Virus record (IMG/VR): IMGVR_UViG_3300047481_001504
Coordinates: 1-31,766 of that record
Reading direction: 5' to 3' (one strand)
DNA length: 31,766 nt
Source: a virus
Part shown: positions 3,345 through 30,102 of the stretch, piece by piece
How the letters are laid out: each line of letters starts with the position of its first letter
How positions within the stretch are numbered: position 1 is the first letter of the stretch
Made by a program: the position numbers and the translations under genes
Notes under the pieces: generated by a model
Seen by the model: only the letters and a program-made list of their open reading frames with translations
Database searches by the model: none
What the model was told of the DNA's origin: nothing

Positions 3345-4384
3345 CCTTGCAACGAATCGCTGTAAATCTCCCGAATCAAGGTCTTGAGGCGTACTTGATC
3401 CTGCACTCCCTGTAGCGTGTCGATCTCGTCGCAGATCAGGGTAAGGGTATCCTTGGTCATGTCCACCACATCGGTGTTGCTGTTTATTTCCTTTTCCGTC
3501 TGATCGGTCACACTCACCGAATGGGCGGGGGCATCGTTCAGCCGATCTAACAAGTTGTCGAACATGATCGGGCGGGTCTTGTTCTTGACCAAGAGCCGAA
3601 TGAATGTATTCCTGTACTGCTTGCAGTTCAGGATGTTGTAGTCTTCCTTGGTGTCATCGTATTCGATCTGATGGAAGATCTGAATCGGGTTCTCAACGAA
3701 CTCCATCTCCCCCGTGCGCGGGTGAAAGATGCTGAATCCTTTGCGCTCGTTTAGATCGGCAAAGGTCATCTGATACTGGGTACCCAAGTAGTGAATGTTT
3801 GCCCTGCTGTGACGGCAATGGAAGTGACCGCTGTAGACCGCCTCATAACTCTTGAACAGAGCAGGATCCATTCCATCGTGGTGTTCGACCCCGCGAAGCA
3901 CCTCATAGCCACTCACCTCAAAGTGCCCCATGAGCACGCGCACGGGCGCGGACGCGATGAACTTCAGGCACTCCTCTGCGTTGTCCTTGGTAATCCAAGG
4001 CATCAATCCTACCTTTGTTTCGCCCAAGTCAAGCACAGTCGGCTGTTCGTGGATTCGAATGTTTGGGTAGTTGCGGAACAGTTCAATAACTGAGTTGAGT
4101 CGATTCGTGTTCTTGAAGAAGACATCGTGGTTGCCTAGAGTGATGTCCATTTCCACACCCATGTTTTTCAGCGGCTCCAAGAACCGAGTTCGAACCTGAT
4201 GCAGCGTGTAGAAGTTAACATACTTGCGACGATCTAAGAAGTCGCCCAAATGGATGATCCTCTTTATGCCACGGTCTTCTATTGTAGGAAAGAACACCTT
4301 CTCCCAAAACTCCATAAAATGTTCAAGAAAGATCGGGCTGTCATTACGAGCACCAAAGTGTGTGTCGTTAATGATTGCAATCAT
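3341..4384 (-). CDS. 47: Recombination endonuclease subunit gp47 (Mre11/SbcD-like)
   Basis: This 347-aa protein carries the full calcineurin-type metallophosphoesterase motif series in order: DTHFG (residues 8-12), GDFLDRR (about 47-53), GNHD (about 98-101), GHFE (about 153-156) and GHFHCR (about 187-192). These residues bind two metal ions in Mre11-family nucleases. With gp46 it processes double-strand ends for recombination and recombination-dependent replication. Its start overlaps the gene 55 stop by 4 nt (ATGA), so it is translationally coupled to the sigma factor. It is transcribed toward gene 46, which is on the other strand. Confidence 0.95.
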   Translation of the reverse strand: MIAIINDTHFGARNDSPIFLEHFMEFWEKVFFPTIEDRGIKRIIHLGDFLDRRKYVNFYTLHQVRTRFLEPLKNMGVEMDITLGNHDVFFKNTNRLNSVIELFRNYPNIRIHEQPTVLDLGETKVGLMPWITKDNAEECLKFIASAPVRVLMGHFEVSGYEVLRGVEHHDGMDPALFKSYEAVYSGHFHCRHSRANIHYLGTQYQMTFADLNERKGFSIFHPRTGEMEFVENPIQIFHQIEYDDTKEDYNILNCKQYRNTFIRLLVKNKTRPIMFDNLLDRLNDAPAHSVSVTDQTEKEINSNTDVVDMTKDTLTLICDEIDTLQGVQDQVRLKTLIREIYSDSLQG

Positions 4385-4959
4385 AGATCTTCCATCACAT
4401 CATCCAAGGTGTTCTTTGGATTTTTAGTGGTATTTTTCTTTCGCTTTTTCTTTTTCTTGGGTCTGAGTGATTCTGATGTGAGGTAAGTATCAGAGATTAT
4501 CCCCATGTACGGGTTTTGATTGCCGTCATCATACTTGCGGTTTTGTTCTTCCATCCAGTTTCGAAAGCGACCAGACAAATCGTTTTCTTCGAAACACTTC
4601 ATCTTGATGTAGAGTTGTTTCTTTTCCTTCTGAATGCGCCTAAGGAATGCGTAGTAGATGATCTGCGTGAAAAATGCAAATGGATTGCGTGACTTCTTTG
4701 GATCAAAGTTGGTCGCATACATGATGCAGTTCTCCACCGAGTCTGATACCATTTCTTCCTTGTAGATGTAGTTTGCAAAGTTGGGCTTTTTTGCCAAATT
4801 GTTAGCAATGTCGAGAAAACATTGACCGATGTAGTTTGTCACACCAGGTGGCTTGATGCCTTCTTTCTTTGCCTTGGCTACAGCCTTCTTATGTGCAACT
4901 AGTTCCTCTAAGAACTGTTCGTTGTTGATGTAATGATTTCCTGTTTTTTTCTTATTCAT
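4381..4959 (-). CDS. 55: Late-transcription sigma factor gp55
   Basis: This 192-aa protein is the usual size for gp55 (T4: 185 aa). The central part, around NFDPKKSRNPFAFFTQIIYYAF and the following RRIQKEKKQ, is the sigma-70 region-2-like core conserved in T4-type late sigma factors. It binds core RNA polymerase and recognises the late -10-like box. A lysine-rich run (KKKKKRKK, near residues 168-175) separates the core from an acidic/hydrophobic C-terminal tail (LDDVMEDL). In T4 the gp55 tail contacts the sliding clamp. The start has an AGAGGA Shine-Dalgarno and a strong host-like promoter just upstream, so it is expressed before the late genes it controls. Confidence 0.92.
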   Translation of the reverse strand: MNKKKTGNHYINNEQFLEELVAHKKAVAKAKKEGIKPPGVTNYIGQCFLDIANNLAKKPNFANYIYKEEMVSDSVENCIMYATNFDPKKSRNPFAFFTQIIYYAFLRRIQKEKKQLYIKMKCFEENDLSGRFRNWMEEQNRKYDDGNQNPYMGIISDTYLTSESLRPKKKKKRKKNTTKNPKNTLDDVMEDL

Positions 4960-12335: not shown

Positions 12336-15089
12336 TTATAGGGCAGGACAATCCTGAAACAGCAGGGCACGGAATGTCGGTTCCGTGTTTCTGTTGTTTG
12401 TTGGCATCAGCACATTACTCTCGCCACCGCCACCGCTTACAACATTGTTTGTGGTCGGGGTGTTGATGACTGCGGTACCGCCTTGATTCATCGCGTTCAT
12501 TTTTGCTGTTGATGTAGTTGTTGTCGCATTGTTGACGGTATTTGCGTTGTAAGAAGGTGCTGCCATCGGGGCAAACTGTACTTTGCCACTTGGGGTTACG
12601 ATTGGTGTTGGTGATGTATTTGAGAAATCAGTCGCCTTTGCAGGACTTGTCGTAGTAGCAGCCATAGTACTTGTACTTTGCTGCGCTTCTTTTACAACTT
12701 CGGCACTCTTCTCAACGGCAACCTGTAAGCCATTACCCCCCGCACCGCCACCAAGGGCTTCCTTGATGTATCCACCAACGATTGGAATCTCTCCCAACCC
12801 ATCAGCAATTGCGTTGATGATTCCTGCGAAGAAATCGATTAGTTCATCGTAAAGCCAAGTGCCAAAGTTGGCAACATCCGCCAAGATCTCACCGCTAGAG
12901 ATCCAATCCCACAGGGACATAAAAGCGTCATATGTCAACTCTGCCAACTTGACAAGCATCTCACCGATAAAATTACCAATCTTAAAAGGCAATACAACAA
13001 CAGCATTAAAGACAGTTTTAATTGCTGCCTCTACGAAAGCAACTATGCTCTTTACTGTTGTGGTGATACCAATCTGAATGACTTTGAATATCTTGCTGAA
13101 GATCGATCCCTCGCCTTGGAAAACTGCCATCACACGCGAGAAGGCATCAGCCAACTTGTCATATACCTTTCCGAAAAATTCAACGATGGGTTCAAACACA
13201 CCCGCGATTCCATCAAACACACCTCCCATGGTTGTGTTGAAGAAGTCAAAGATGCTTTGGAAGTCAAGCAGTCCGAATGTAAGACCGCTGATAATCTGAG
13301 CAATCGCACCCATGATCAGACCCTTGATATTTCCCAACTTTTGGAACCCCTTGTAGGCACCGAAGATGGCATCAATCACTAGTTGAACATAGAAGAATAC
13401 TTTACCTAGTACTTGGAAACCAAACTTGAATGCGGATCCCAATCGTCCAAGGAACGGAAAGACCTTTGCAATTCCTTCGCCAAAAAGACCTAACTTGCTT
13501 CCTACACCAGCAAGTACTTTTCCGATGCCGCCACCAATCGCCCCCAACTTTCCAAAGACATTACCAATTACCTTGCCGATGCCGAATGGAAGGTGTGTGA
13601 GCACACTGAGGATGTTCTTCACGATGTTGACAATGAACATCACCTTGTAGAAGATGTAACCGAGAACAGCACCAATAGTTATTGTGAGGATAACAAGGAT
13701 AGTCTTGAACCACCCGTCCTCTTTTTTAAACATACCCCCCATAGTGCCCTTTAGGCTTTCGATTCCATCAACAAATTTCTGTGCCCAAGGGGGAGTATCA
13801 TTCAGGGTTTCAGCCTCCCTCTCCGCCGTCGCGATGGAATCCTTTTCCATCCTGTCGATCATCCTAATCTCATGCCCCTCTAGCCTTTCCAAAGACTTAA
13901 TGACCTGACTCTGCCCGTCAATGATTTTTGCATCAGTTTCTCTGTTCTCTTTGGTATCCGCAAGTTTTGCGGCAGTAGCAACAGAGACCTTTTTCTCTTC
14001 AACAATCTTCTTGATTCTCTCTTGCCGAACTTTTTCTAATTCCTTCTGCTGCTGAATCTCAATACGCTTCATAATGACATCTTTCTGTGTCATTATGAAC
14101 TTTTCGCGGTTTACTGCGACTTCTTCTTTGGTGGCTTTGGGATTGTATGCCTTGAAGCGATCATCCTCGGCCTTAGCAATCTCATCAATTTGATTCTTGA
14201 TTGTTCCCAAACCAACGAGACCTCCTTGTGCTTCTAGGCTTTTTCCAAAGTCTTCGGCTGTTTGAGTTCTTTGGTATTCCTTGATAGATTCTTTCTTTTT
14301 CTTCTTCTCATCGAGTTCATCGGCAGCAGCAGTTGCAGCCTCTTCCGATGCTTTCTTTTCTTTTTCCGCAGTTTCTGCTGCTTTCTGTGCCGCTTCTTCC
14401 AACGCTTTTGCTGCGTCTTCTGCTGCTTTTGCAAGATTGGCTTCCTTCAAAGACTGTGCCATTTCACCAAACACAGATTCTGTTTTAGTCTTTAGTTCGC
14501 TTGATATCTTCTGTGTTTCGGTTTCAATCTTTGCATTTGTGGAGGTAATATACTTGGTTGCCTGTCCAAGAGACTTGGACAAATCTGCGCCGATAGACGC
14601 ATCAGCCTCTTTCACCACATCCCGCAAGTCGCGCAATGAGAAGAGCGCGGACATCCGAGCATCCTTCTCTTCCTTCATGGTTTTTATGTTTTCTTCTAGC
14701 GCAGTGGTAACCCCGTCGATTTCCTCGACAGCAGCAGAATAGCCTTCGTTGATTTTCAGAAGGTCGTTTTCATACTTTTCGCGGATAGCCTCCGCGCCTT
14801 TGACCCAATTACCTTGCGCGTCAATGTACTTCTTGTGAGCAGCGAGAAGAGCATCCGAGTCTTTCTTTTTCTGTTCATCCGCCTTGTGCAACTTGACAGA
14901 TACTTCTAAGAGTTTGTCTTCGATCTTCTTTCTCTTGGCTAAAGTCTCGTTTGACTTCTCAACCAACTTCTTCAGGTCTTCAATCTCAGCAAAAAACTTG
15001 TCCAATGCCTTGTTGGCATCGGGCGATGGGGATATCAACCCATCTTGGTTGTTTGGTGGTGTGGGATTGCCTTGTGTTGGTTCAGCCAT
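12336..15089 (-). CDS. Tail tape measure protein (gp29 functional equivalent)
   Basis: This 917-aa protein has a long charged helical N-terminal half (residues about 25-430), including an Ala/Glu/Lys-rich coiled-coil stretch near 210-265. A hydrophobic segment follows (WFKTILVILTITIGAVLGYI, about 460-480), then a Gly/Phe-rich region to about 790, and a Ser/Thr/Asn-rich C-terminus. Length, composition and position directly after the gp26-like gene and its frameshift extension mark it as the tape measure. T4 gp29 is 590 aa, so this tail should be longer; by the rule of about 0.15 nm per residue it would be near 135 nm. Only an AGGGA Shine-Dalgarno precedes the ATG, 12 nt after the extension's stop. 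Confidence 0.85.
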   Translation of the reverse strand: MAEPTQGNPTPPNNQDGLISPSPDANKALDKFFAEIEDLKKLVEKSNETLAKRKKIEDKLLEVSVKLHKADEQKKKDSDALLAAHKKYIDAQGNWVKGAEAIREKYENDLLKINEGYSAAVEEIDGVTTALEENIKTMKEEKDARMSALFSLRDLRDVVKEADASIGADLSKSLGQATKYITSTNAKIETETQKISSELKTKTESVFGEMAQSLKEANLAKAAEDAAKALEEAAQKAAETAEKEKKASEEAATAAADELDEKKKKKESIKEYQRTQTAEDFGKSLEAQGGLVGLGTIKNQIDEIAKAEDDRFKAYNPKATKEEVAVNREKFIMTQKDVIMKRIEIQQQKELEKVRQERIKKIVEEKKVSVATAAKLADTKENRETDAKIIDGQSQVIKSLERLEGHEIRMIDRMEKDSIATAEREAETLNDTPPWAQKFVDGIESLKGTMGGMFKKEDGWFKTILVILTITIGAVLGYIFYKVMFIVNIVKNILSVLTHLPFGIGKVIGNVFGKLGAIGGGIGKVLAGVGSKLGLFGEGIAKVFPFLGRLGSAFKFGFQVLGKVFFYVQLVIDAIFGAYKGFQKLGNIKGLIMGAIAQIISGLTFGLLDFQSIFDFFNTTMGGVFDGIAGVFEPIVEFFGKVYDKLADAFSRVMAVFQGEGSIFSKIFKVIQIGITTTVKSIVAFVEAAIKTVFNAVVVLPFKIGNFIGEMLVKLAELTYDAFMSLWDWISSGEILADVANFGTWLYDELIDFFAGIINAIADGLGEIPIVGGYIKEALGGGAGGNGLQVAVEKSAEVVKEAQQSTSTMAATTTSPAKATDFSNTSPTPIVTPSGKVQFAPMAAPSYNANTVNNATTTTSTAKMNAMNQGGTAVINTPTTNNVVSGGGGESNVLMPTNNRNTEPTFRALLFQDCPAL

Positions 15090-15101: not shown

Positions 15102-15298
15102 TTACTGTCTTTGACTCTTCAAAGACTCCATCCGCTCCTTTTCTTCCTTCAAGTGTTGCATAAGCAAATCGATGTAAACCCTCCGTTCCCATGGCATCAT
15201 GCTCTCTAGATCAACTAGCGTGTAGTTGAAGTTTTGCATCATCGCAAAGTTCACAGAGAGCATGTTGAATAGATTGTCATGGGTGGAGGCTAGGAGAA
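15102..15298 (-). CDS. Frameshift-expressed C-terminal extension of the gp26-like protein (GT-type domain)
   Basis: In the -1 frame relative to the gp26-like gene, 64 codons are open from the slippery site to TAA at 15104-15102. The product contains NFNYTLVDLESMMPWERRVY followed by IDLLMQHLKEEKERM, an aromatic-rich helix and a charged coil typical of tail-assembly-chaperone T domains. There is no Shine-Dalgarno before its first internal ATG (15263), and the frame is open well upstream of that ATG, through the overlap with the gp26-like gene. A -1 shift would give a 298-aa fusion. Position between the chaperone-like gene and the tape measure matches the lambda G-GT-H order. Confidence 0.75.
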
Positions 15299-15997
15299 AA
15301 AACTTGTGATCCCCCTCAGAGTTGAGTTGTTTTCATGCCCACAATGCTTGCACTTGAATTGAACTTGTTTCTCCAACTTGGGCATCGTTTCCACGAAGGA
15401 GAAGAGTTTCTTGAACTGTTCCTGCGTCATCTCTTCGATGAACCCACGGACTTCCTTGGGATCCATTTCAGATGCATTGAAGATCTTCTCACCTTGATAG
15501 ACCTTGTCGATTGACTTCACCAACAGGGTGAGTGCTTTTTCGATGTCGCTCTGTGAGTCAATATCTTTCAGGTCATCGACAGTCGGATACTTCATGACTA
15601 CGCTGATGTCCCCGACGATGGGGATGATCTTCTTGTGATTCGGATCGTTGATCGGCTGAATCTCCTTCAGGTTGATCTCAACCTCTGTGGGGAGTTCGCA
15701 CTTCGAACACTTGATATTTGGCTTGGCGGTTTCGCCAACGGAGTGACTACGCAGTTGCAGGAACAAATATTCCATGTCCACCAACGGCAACTTGAAGACA
15801 TCCACTACTCCGCCTGTGCACGAGGAGATCACCTCGCGGATGGCTGTATTGATTGTTTTCTCGTCCTTGCTTTCAGCCGCCATGAGAAGGATTTTCTCCT
15901 CCTTAACGATGAATGGTCGATATTCAATCTTCTTTCCGCTGATGGGAAGAGTTGTTTGGTGTTTTGGTGTTGAAGCGATAATTCCTGCGAGTGACAT
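15290..15997 (-). CDS. 26: gp26-like baseplate hub / tail-assembly chaperone protein
   Basis: This 235-aa protein (T4 gp26: 208 aa) has the N-terminus LPISGKKIEYRPFIVKEEK, then LLMAAESKDEKTI, the opening typical of the T4 gp26 family. A zinc knuckle is likely from paired Cys motifs: CSKC (about residue 97) in the middle and CKHC (about residue 217) near the end. It has a good AGGAGA Shine-Dalgarno. It ends with a slippery T TTT TTC three codons before its TAG, from which a longer fusion can arise. Family knowledge places it in the baseplate hub or its assembly. The architecture here suggests a tail assembly chaperone acting on the tape measure. Confidence 0.82.
   Translation of the reverse strand: MSLAGIIASTPKHQTTLPISGKKIEYRPFIVKEEKILLMAAESKDEKTINTAIREVISSCTGGVVDVFKLPLVDMEYLFLQLRSHSVGETAKPNIKCSKCELPTEVEINLKEIQPINDPNHKKIIPIVGDISVVMKYPTVDDLKDIDSQSDIEKALTLLVKSIDKVYQGEKIFNASEMDPKEVRGFIEEMTQEQFKKLFSFVETMPKLEKQVQFKCKHCGHENNSTLRGITSFFS
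15296..15302 (-). promoter_or_regulatory. Programmed -1 ribosomal frameshift site
   Basis: In the frame of the gp26-like gene the bases read T TTT TTC, a canonical X XXY YYZ heptamer where both tRNA-Phe can re-pair after slipping back one base. A G-rich Shine-Dalgarno-like AGGGGG lies 8 nt upstream, the usual place of a stimulator. The zero-frame stop comes two codons later, and the -1 frame stays open for 64 codons. Confidence 0.78.
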
Positions 15998-16019
15998 AAT
16001 GATCTCCTATGATAAAAGA

Positions 16020-27878: not shown

Positions 27879-30086
27879 ATGAGTATTGATGGTGATCGCA
27901 ACCTCTCACACTTAGTTCCCGACAGACTCCCTGAGTTTGTTCGGGTAGATCACCCCACGCTTGTGGCGTTTCTGTCTGCCTACTATGAATGGTTGGGATT
28001 GGAACGGAACGAGGGAAAGGTGCTTTCGCCAATGGCAATGCATGACATTCCTGATATTGATACAACGCTTGATCAGTTCGTGGAGGATTTTCGCAAGCAG
28101 TATCTGCTCAACTTTCCCGAAAGCCTTGCGATAAACAAGAAAACGAATGAGCCTGTCGATGCGCGGCGGCTCATGAAGAACATCAAGCAGTTCTATTTTG
28201 CAAAGGGCACCGAGAAGTCATATGAGTTCCTGTTTCGTATTCTCTACGATACATCGGTGGAGTTTTATTATCCCAAGACAGACATTATGCGTTTGTCTTC
28301 AGGCAGATGGGCACAGAACAACTACCTACGAATCTCTAACGCTCTTGGCGACACAATTTATCGTGCCGCAGGAAACAACATCGTGCAAAAGAGCGCAAAT
28401 GGTTCGATCCTAGCGACAGCCCGTGTCGTTGATGTAAATGTCTATCAGATTGACAATTTTCCCGTAGCGGAACTCTTGATTTCGGGAAGAAACGGTACAT
28501 TTACAGCAGGAAACTTGGGACTTGATTTCACCGATGGAGATGAGTCTTTCCATGAAGTCTCCGTATACAGCGTTGTATCGTCACTCAGCATTTCAAATGG
28601 AGGCAGTGACTACGAGATTGGTGATTTAGTTCGGTTTGTTGCCCAAAGTGGAGATAGTGGTCAGCAAGCGGTAGGAACAGTAGTTGAAGTCGATGCGGTG
28701 GGTTCTATTCGAAAAATTGATATCAATGATTTTGGTATCAACTACAAGACCTCACCGAACATTGTGATTGACACGACCCGAGGATCGGGATTCAGTGGAA
28801 GCGTGACAGTGGGTGCGTTGTGCCAATCTTCGGGGTATTATACTAACAATGACGGAAGACTCAGCACCAATAAGGTGTTGCAGGATAATCATTTTTATCA
28901 AAATTGGTCATATGTTCTGAAGAGTGAAGTTGTGATCGACAGATACAGAGAAGTCATTCGCAGATTAGTACACCCAATCGGAACCGCAATGTTCGGATCG
29001 GTGTTGATCAAAAGATGCTCTGAGGCAGACTTGGAGAATGCATCTGCTCTTATGTCATACCATGTGCCGATCATCGGTCACTATGTACCGTATACATTCC
29101 AAACATTCGATGATCTGTCGCTGTGGTTCTTGACGGGTGTCACGGGTGGTGGATTAACCGCAGCAGGGTATTCACCCAACACACATGATATTTTCATTCG
29201 CGGAACAGGAAATGGATTGGCACTTCAAGGCAATCCGATTACAAATAACATTTCATTTGTCGGTGCGACCGCGGGAATTATTTTTGAGAACGATTTTCCA
29301 AATGCAGATCCGTTTTGGATCGTGTATCCACACCCAAACAAAATGGTCTCGCGTGGATATCACATCGCCAAGATTTGGAACACTCAGATTGAGGACTTCC
29401 TGTCACTGGAAAGAGGTTGGAGAGAGTGGTCATATTACAAAGAAGGACAAACTGAAAATATCTCTGCTTGGGAACGAGATCTTCGTAATACAGACTATCC
29501 GCTCAACATCACCGCAGATGCAACTGAGCCATGTAACGGAAATATCACTCCTTGTCCCAACGGTCTCTACTATACCGAAGAAAACGATTTCAAATATGCT
29601 CTTCTTGAATATGACGAGAACAGCGAATTTCGAAAGATCACGGCACGGGCTTTCTTCAACATGCCGCAGGGTCAAGAATTTAACTGTAAGAATGAAAACT
29701 TCGCGGATGTTGTCGTTCCAAAGATCGCAATCACAATACCCTCTGAGGGGAGTATCGCAAACAATCCCCCCGTACCTGTCGGCACCCAAGAGTCCGACTA
29801 TTACTTTTTCAGGACGCTGACAGTCAACTTTACGATAGCAAACCAAGAAAATCTTTCCTACTACAAGGCAAAGGAGATTAAGGTTTATTTGAATAACAGG
29901 TTTAGGTCTACTCTTTCTGTTAACAGCAGAAGAATTTCCTTGAGTAACATGAAAAACGGCAGACAGACTCTTAGGATGGAAATATTAGACGAACATGGAA
30001 GACTGATCCCTGGGACGAGAAAGATTCACTTGTTTGGTTATGAGTTTATACCACCGCCAAAACCAACAACAATAGCGGGGGGCTAG
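27879..30086 (+). CDS. 7: Baseplate wedge protein gp7
   Basis: This 735-aa protein has the typical N-terminal wedge-arm block: LPEFVRVDHPTLVAFLSAYY, EWLGLERNEGKV, DIPDIDTTLDQFVEDFRKQYL, IKQFYFAKGTEKSYEFLFRI and LYDTSVEFYYPKTDIMRLSS. It continues with strand-rich domains and a C-terminal Ig-like part (about residues 610-730; YYFFRTLTVNFTIA, RRISLSNMKNGRQTLRMEIL). T4 gp7 is 1032 aa, so this form is shorter. Order 25-6-7-8 is the same as in T4. gp7 joins gp6, gp53 and gp10 in the wedge. There is no clear Shine-Dalgarno. Confidence 0.88.
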   Translation: MSIDGDRNLSHLVPDRLPEFVRVDHPTLVAFLSAYYEWLGLERNEGKVLSPMAMHDIPDIDTTLDQFVEDFRKQYLLNFPESLAINKKTNEPVDARRLMKNIKQFYFAKGTEKSYEFLFRILYDTSVEFYYPKTDIMRLSSGRWAQNNYLRISNALGDTIYRAAGNNIVQKSANGSILATARVVDVNVYQIDNFPVAELLISGRNGTFTAGNLGLDFTDGDESFHEVSVYSVVSSLSISNGGSDYEIGDLVRFVAQSGDSGQQAVGTVVEVDAVGSIRKIDINDFGINYKTSPNIVIDTTRGSGFSGSVTVGALCQSSGYYTNNDGRLSTNKVLQDNHFYQNWSYVLKSEVVIDRYREVIRRLVHPIGTAMFGSVLIKRCSEADLENASALMSYHVPIIGHYVPYTFQTFDDLSLWFLTGVTGGGLTAAGYSPNTHDIFIRGTGNGLALQGNPITNNISFVGATAGIIFENDFPNADPFWIVYPHPNKMVSRGYHIAKIWNTQIEDFLSLERGWREWSYYKEGQTENISAWERDLRNTDYPLNITADATEPCNGNITPCPNGLYYTEENDFKYALLEYDENSEFRKITARAFFNMPQGQEFNCKNENFADVVVPKIAITIPSEGSIANNPPVPVGTQESDYYFFRTLTVNFTIANQENLSYYKAKEIKVYLNNRFRSTLSVNSRRISLSNMKNGRQTLRMEILDEHGRLIPGTRKIHLFGYEFIPPPKPTTIAGG

Positions 30087-30095
30087 GTAAGCACT

Positions 30096-30102
30096 CTAAA
30101 TA
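30096..30102 (+). promoter_or_regulatory. Putative late promoter box CTAAATA for gene 8
   Basis: CTAAATA lies in the 23-bp gap after gene 7 and ends 7 nt before the gene 8 ATG, which has no Shine-Dalgarno. Confidence 0.65.

Follow-up and report, generated by a model that had tools for sequence, protein, structure and literature searches.

The locus described here lies on the minus strand of a 31,766-nt window, by which we mean the whole stretch of viral DNA that was analyzed (IMG/VR record IMGVR_UViG_3300047481_001504). T4-type core genes are present in this window, namely those for gp32, the DNA end protector, head closure, tail cap, and UvsY proteins, a late sigma factor, a helicase, SbcC/SbcD-like nuclease subunits, a hub lysozyme, and baseplate wedge proteins. 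No close DNA relatives of the window were found among phage records; at the protein level, gp26 sequences on IMG/VR contigs showed up to 97% identity to the product of the window gene.

The features of the locus are summarized in Table 1. The 3′ end of the gp26-like gene reads CTG AGG GGG ATC ACA AGT TTT TTC TCC TAG, in which the reading phase of T TTT TTC fits a tandem −1 slip. An open −1 frame spans 15332 to 15105 and is closed by a TAA at 15104–15102, and a fusion made at this site would join gp26 residues 1–234 to 64 further residues, giving a protein of 298 aa (TAC-NC), with the −1-frame product past the slip being LLASTHDNLFNMLSVNFAMMQNFNYTLVDLESMMPWERRVYIDLLMQHLKEEKERMESLKSQRQ. The first start codon in this frame is an ATG at extension codon 12, 29 nt beyond the gp26 stop; inspection of the sequence revealed no Shine-Dalgarno motif at this ATG, nor any start codon upstream of it in the open stretch from 15332. 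A sequence-only reading of this DNA had pointed to the heptamer near the end of the gp26-like frame, to an AGGGGG 8 nt ahead of it, and to a 64-codon −1 frame that ends 12 nt before the tape-measure ATG and is open upstream of a first ATG devoid of a ribosome-binding site. All of these were reproduced, with the heptamer placed one sense codon before the TAG and the strand, which that reading had left unstated, identified as minus.

Table 1. Features of the frameshift locus in the window
Feature	Coordinates	Strand	Basis
AGGAG ribosome-binding site of the gp26-like gene	16004..16008	−	Sequence
gp26-like gene, short form (TAC-N), 235 aa, zero frame	15290..15997	−	PF12322, phrog_150
Internal Shine-Dalgarno-like element (AGGGGG), 8 nt ahead of the heptamer	15311..15316	−	Sequence; shuffle test
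Slippery heptamer T TTT TTC, a single codon ahead of the gp26 stop	15296..15302	−	78/78 relatives with an intact 3′ end
Short-form stop (TAG), 3 nt past the heptamer	15290..15292	−	Sequence
gp51-like extension (TAC-C domain) in the −1 frame, 64 codons and a TAA	15102..15296	−	phrog_634, dN/dS
Putative tape measure protein ORF, 917 aa, ATG at 15089	12336..15089	−	phrog_1535, position

We examined the conservation of the heptamer in relatives that were retrieved from IMG/VR with gp26 peptides alone, so that neither the heptamer nor the extension was selected for among these loci. The set comprised 80 such loci together with S-SSM7, S-BM3, and Melnitz-3, and five of these sequences end before the stop, leaving 78 with an intact 3′ end. 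An in-register T TTT TTC or T TTT TTT was present 0–9 nt before the stop in all 78 (30–97% identity), and every one of them also carried the −1 extension, that of L046 being shortened by the contig end. Thus, the conservation across related phages that the sequence-only reading had set as a check was found throughout the intact relatives. The heptamer was further present in the named phages phiM19, Bakedbeans, Moby, D484, V07, ACG-2014a, and Syn9. Among 40 representative sequences (<80% identity), the distance from heptamer to stop was 3 nt in 34; TTT was in every case the first Phe codon and was always preceded by GAT, AGT, AAT, or TCT. Given the amino acids and codon usage, the chance of finding a T-ending preceding codon and a TTT Phe codon in all 40 was estimated at ~10^−17.7 on the assumption of independence, a value that is overstated by the kinship of the representatives but clear in its direction. 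These data indicated that the T's of the heptamer are retained beyond what the amino acids require, and that the conservation of heptamer and extension is more than chance.

Selection on the extension was then evaluated by dN/dS in 15 ungapped relatives, which yielded 0.069 in the −1 frame versus 1.09 and 2.76 in the other two frames; for the codons between the slip and the first ATG, the value was 0.121. These results indicated strong purifying selection on the −1 frame, including the part that precedes its first start codon. A −1-frame stop immediately adjoins the slip site in 9 of the 40 representatives, any ATG, GTG, or TTG upstream in the −1 frame occurs in only 2 of 40, and a conserved segment, FFRxALxHxxLxxY (FF..L..H..L..NF), lies ahead of the first ATG in most of them. 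Therefore, entry into the −1 frame must come from the gp26 frame, which argues against the separate gp51 gene of the public records.

A Shine-Dalgarno-like element was found 8–10 nt upstream of the heptamer in most representatives. Across the 40 sequences, its predicted pairing with the anti-Shine-Dalgarno averaged −6.4 kcal/mol versus −4.6 kcal/mol for synonymous-codon shuffles, none of 200 shuffles was as strong as the observed pairing (z = −7.4), and at 15 other places in the gene the z values ranged from −1.3 to 2.1. Since this excess over the shuffles is specific to the place, the codons appear to have been chosen such that the internal element is kept. A downstream stimulatory hairpin was considered as well and was rejected, as the window gave a z of 0.12 and no structure was common to the relative set; L047 and L081, which fold well downstream of the heptamer, are exceptions in the set. 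There was no trade-off between downstream folding and Shine-Dalgarno strength (Spearman −0.09).

The proteins encoded by the two frames were compared with profile families. The short form matched Pfam PF12322 (T4_baseplate) at E = 1.4e-60 and phrog_150 (baseplate hub) at E = 2.7e-59, with the phrog_150 profile continuing into the extension, and the extension matched phrog_634 (baseplate hub assembly catalyst, the gp51 family) at E = 5e-20. T4 gp26 aligned over its full length with the short-form profile of the relatives (65.8 bits). T4 gp51 aligned with the virtual-fusion profile at 40.6 bits over columns 52–280 of 297, that is, across the frame junction, versus 13.8 bits with the short-form profile alone. 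These alignments amend the sequence-only reading in that they indicate the extension to be a homologue of the T4 gp51 C terminus, and T4 gp51 itself to be the long form.

AlphaFold models of the short form and of the mostly helical extension reached pLDDT values of 87 and 80, respectively. Residues 1–87 of the short-form model best matched the HK97 tail assembly chaperone 2ob9 (Z = 7.5, 84 residues, rmsd 3.7 Å), a score that unrelated folds can also reach; Foldseek alone gave E = 0.99 for the same pair, and a search with the gp26 profile against the sequences of solved structures returned nothing significant. The match of the modeled N-terminal domain to the HK97 chaperone is thus supportive, not proof. 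The next structural match, at Z = 4.1, was 5ir0, ORF19 of a Vibrio cholerae PICI-like element, which aligned with short-form residues 7–92 and is possibly a chaperone-like protein in a phage satellite. For the extension, all Foldseek matches to viral models had E values above 0.001, the best of them being a 182-aa protein that also matched the gp26 model. The 917-aa ORF downstream gave a weak match to phrog_1535 (tail length tape measure, E = 6.5e-5), and in five close representatives (L012, L019, L020, L021, and L027) an ORF of 907–978 aa starts 6–16 nt after the extension; this profile match, together with the position, suggests that the ORF is tape-measure-like.

Taken together, we consider it very probable that the locus makes a two-form tail assembly chaperone, TAC-N and TAC-NC, by −1 programmed ribosomal frameshifting. 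Most ribosomes would read the gp26-like gene to its TAG and release the 235-aa TAC-N, and a minority would pause on T TTT TTC, presumably aided by pairing of the 16S rRNA 3′ end with AGGGGG. Both tRNA-Phe, one in the P site and one in the A site, would then re-pair one base back (UUU/UUC to UUU/UUU), the stop would be bypassed, and 64 further residues would complete the 298-aa TAC-NC. On the model of lambda G/GT, the short form would coat the tape measure, the C-terminal domain of the long form would recruit the tail tube protein, and both forms would leave the finished tail. The 235-aa and 298-aa forms and the G/GT-type role proposed in the sequence-only reading gain support from the heptamer conservation, the selection on the −1 frame, the Shine-Dalgarno-like element, the gp51-family extension, and the HK97-chaperone-like fold predicted for the N-terminal domain. 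The gene order and the published precedent in T4-like phages also speak for the frameshifted chaperone, whereas the lack of a shared downstream RNA structure counts against it. The sequence-only reading had named relatives whose frames are always separate with a good second start, or a heptamer that is not conserved, as grounds against a frameshift, and the frameshift withstood both comparisons.

The public records imply a different account, namely that the extension is a small gene of its own, gp51, translated by termination-reinitiation or from an internal start, with the heptamer being incidental. Indeed, gp51 is annotated as a separate CDS in the S-SSM7, S-SM1, Syn9, phiM19, and D484 records, and three phages (D484, V07, and Moby) have an ATG that overlaps the stop of gp26. 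However, most representatives resemble the window in that their first ATG lies 23–56 nt past the stop, behind conserved coding sequence, the window's ATG is without a Shine-Dalgarno motif, and the annotations of S-SSM7, Syn9, and ACG-2014a begin at differing points inside one conserved domain. What is invariant is the heptamer and not a start codon, and we regard a separate gene as very unlikely. As an observation in its own right, the −1-frame ATG overlaps or abuts the gp26 stop in phiM19, Moby, D484, and V07 (L085, L088, L090, and L094), and reinitiation in these phages could contribute a free extension besides the fusion.

That the true gene is a single 298-aa ORF, with the FF pair and the extension reflecting protein constraint and the frame being broken by a recent mutation or a sequencing error, is hardly credible. 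Indel errors are common in poly-T runs, and T4 gp51 is a long form in a single frame, but the frame relation and the stop recur in 78 contigs and isolate genomes that differ widely in sequence, and T4 has a separate short-form gene, the keeping of which suggests that both chaperone forms matter. A further account accepts the frameshift and takes its products for structural parts of the baseplate hub rather than tape-measure chaperones; it draws on the historic T4 names (gp26, baseplate hub subunit; gp51, catalyst) and on the baseplate genes near the locus. T4-like genes have, however, been reassigned as tail assembly chaperones (Vladimirov et al. 2022, cited in PMC10885494 and PMC12846349). 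The gene order directly before the tape measure, the two-form architecture, and the HK97-chaperone-like N-terminal domain predicted here likewise speak against baseplate parts, and we judge this account improbable, if the least so of the three.

The chaperone frameshift proposed here can be set beside known systems. The −1 frameshift of Escherichia coli dnaX employs an internal Shine-Dalgarno upstream of the tandem-slip heptamer A AAA AAG and a downstream hairpin; dnaX is a cellular gene with that hairpin, whereas no shared downstream structure was found in the relatives of the window. In lambda the slippery heptamer is GGGAAAG, in contrast to T TTT TTC in the window. As for T4-like phages, Vladimirov and coworkers are said to have found frameshifting conserved in several groups, with T4 using separate genes 26 and 51. 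The window proteins belong to the same families as this T4 pair, the short form corresponding to gp26 and the fusion to gp51 across the junction. In T4 and Phi1, however, the two forms are separate, divergently transcribed genes, in contrast to the single frameshifting locus of the window, and T4 gp26 is without the slippery site, having GAG TTC TTT there. Lambda G/GT and other −1 frameshifted tail assembly chaperones follow the same logic as proposed for the window, pairing a short form with a −1 extension immediately ahead of the gene for the tape measure (Xu, Hendrix and Duda 2004). Phage Adele (Vandenendeviridae/Andersonviridae) resembles the window in the proposed −1 slip and the gene order but belongs to different phage families: according to PMC12846349, its tail assembly chaperone is made by a −1 frameshift with an invariant GTTTTT near the TAC-N end and an extension before the tape measure.

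The same source credits poly-T slippery signals in T4-like TAC-N genes to Vladimirov et al. 2022 (Virology 566:9-15), and the reference list of PMC10885494 also contains this paper by Vladimirov, Gautam and Davidson on T4-like tail assembly chaperones. The idea of a frameshifted T4-like chaperone, put forward in the sequence-only reading, is therefore already published (Vladimirov, Gautam and Davidson, Virology 2022), and the window locus joins a known group. What may be added to it are the selected Shine-Dalgarno-like element, the short and conserved spacing between heptamer and stop, and five phages (VPALA, D504, IME250, phiDP10.3, and SP1) that have a −1 extension without the canonical heptamer.

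These variants comprise three Ackermannviridae sequences (L091, L092, and L093) and the Vibrio phages VPALA and D504 (L087 and L089), in which the gp26-like gene ends in ATT TTC ATT TAA or CTT TTC xxx TAA and is followed by a −1 extension of about 50–65 codons, but a heptamer of the canonical XXXYYYZ type is missing. As no more than three codons of open −1 frame precede the stop in L092 and L093, the slip would have to take place at another type of site. We hold the following history to be about as likely as not. The T4-type cassette, consisting of the heptamer, a selected Shine-Dalgarno-like element 8–10 nt upstream, and a stop that mostly follows after one codon, and having no downstream structure in common, would be ancestral; the T4 pair would have arisen by duplication, one copy keeping the short form and the other fusing the frames; and the Ackermannviridae and the two Vibrio phages would have kept the extension with a decayed heptamer (G ATT TTC, A CTT TTC), which would point to another manner of slipping. 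Since V07 is classified in Straboviridae (Schizotequatrovirus), this family may contain frameshifting as well as split-gene forms.

If the proposed frameshift holds, a large and mostly uncultivated group of T4-type phages is placed among the frameshifters, and public records would be splitting one chaperone into gp26 and a shortened gp51 whose start is set arbitrarily. How T4 came to have genes 26 and 51 apart also becomes testable, and the relatives provide a natural series in which the contribution of an internal Shine-Dalgarno to −1 slippage can be followed.

Elsewhere in the window, an in-register G GGG GGC at 30077–30083 (+) directly precedes the stop, at 30084, of a baseplate wedge ORF, and the −1 frame runs on without interruption into the following wedge gene. 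This candidate for a second frameshift was rejected, as none of 14 relatives keeps the heptamer, and the run is probably a chance occurrence. Nearby, TCTAAATA at 30095–30102 (+), 7 nt before the wedge gene ATG, resembles the T4-type late promoter (TATAAATA). Over the whole window, late-promoter-like motifs were not more numerous than expected by chance; the late sigma factor of the window is encoded at 4381–4959, and CTAAATA is kept before the wedge gene in 13 of 14 relatives.
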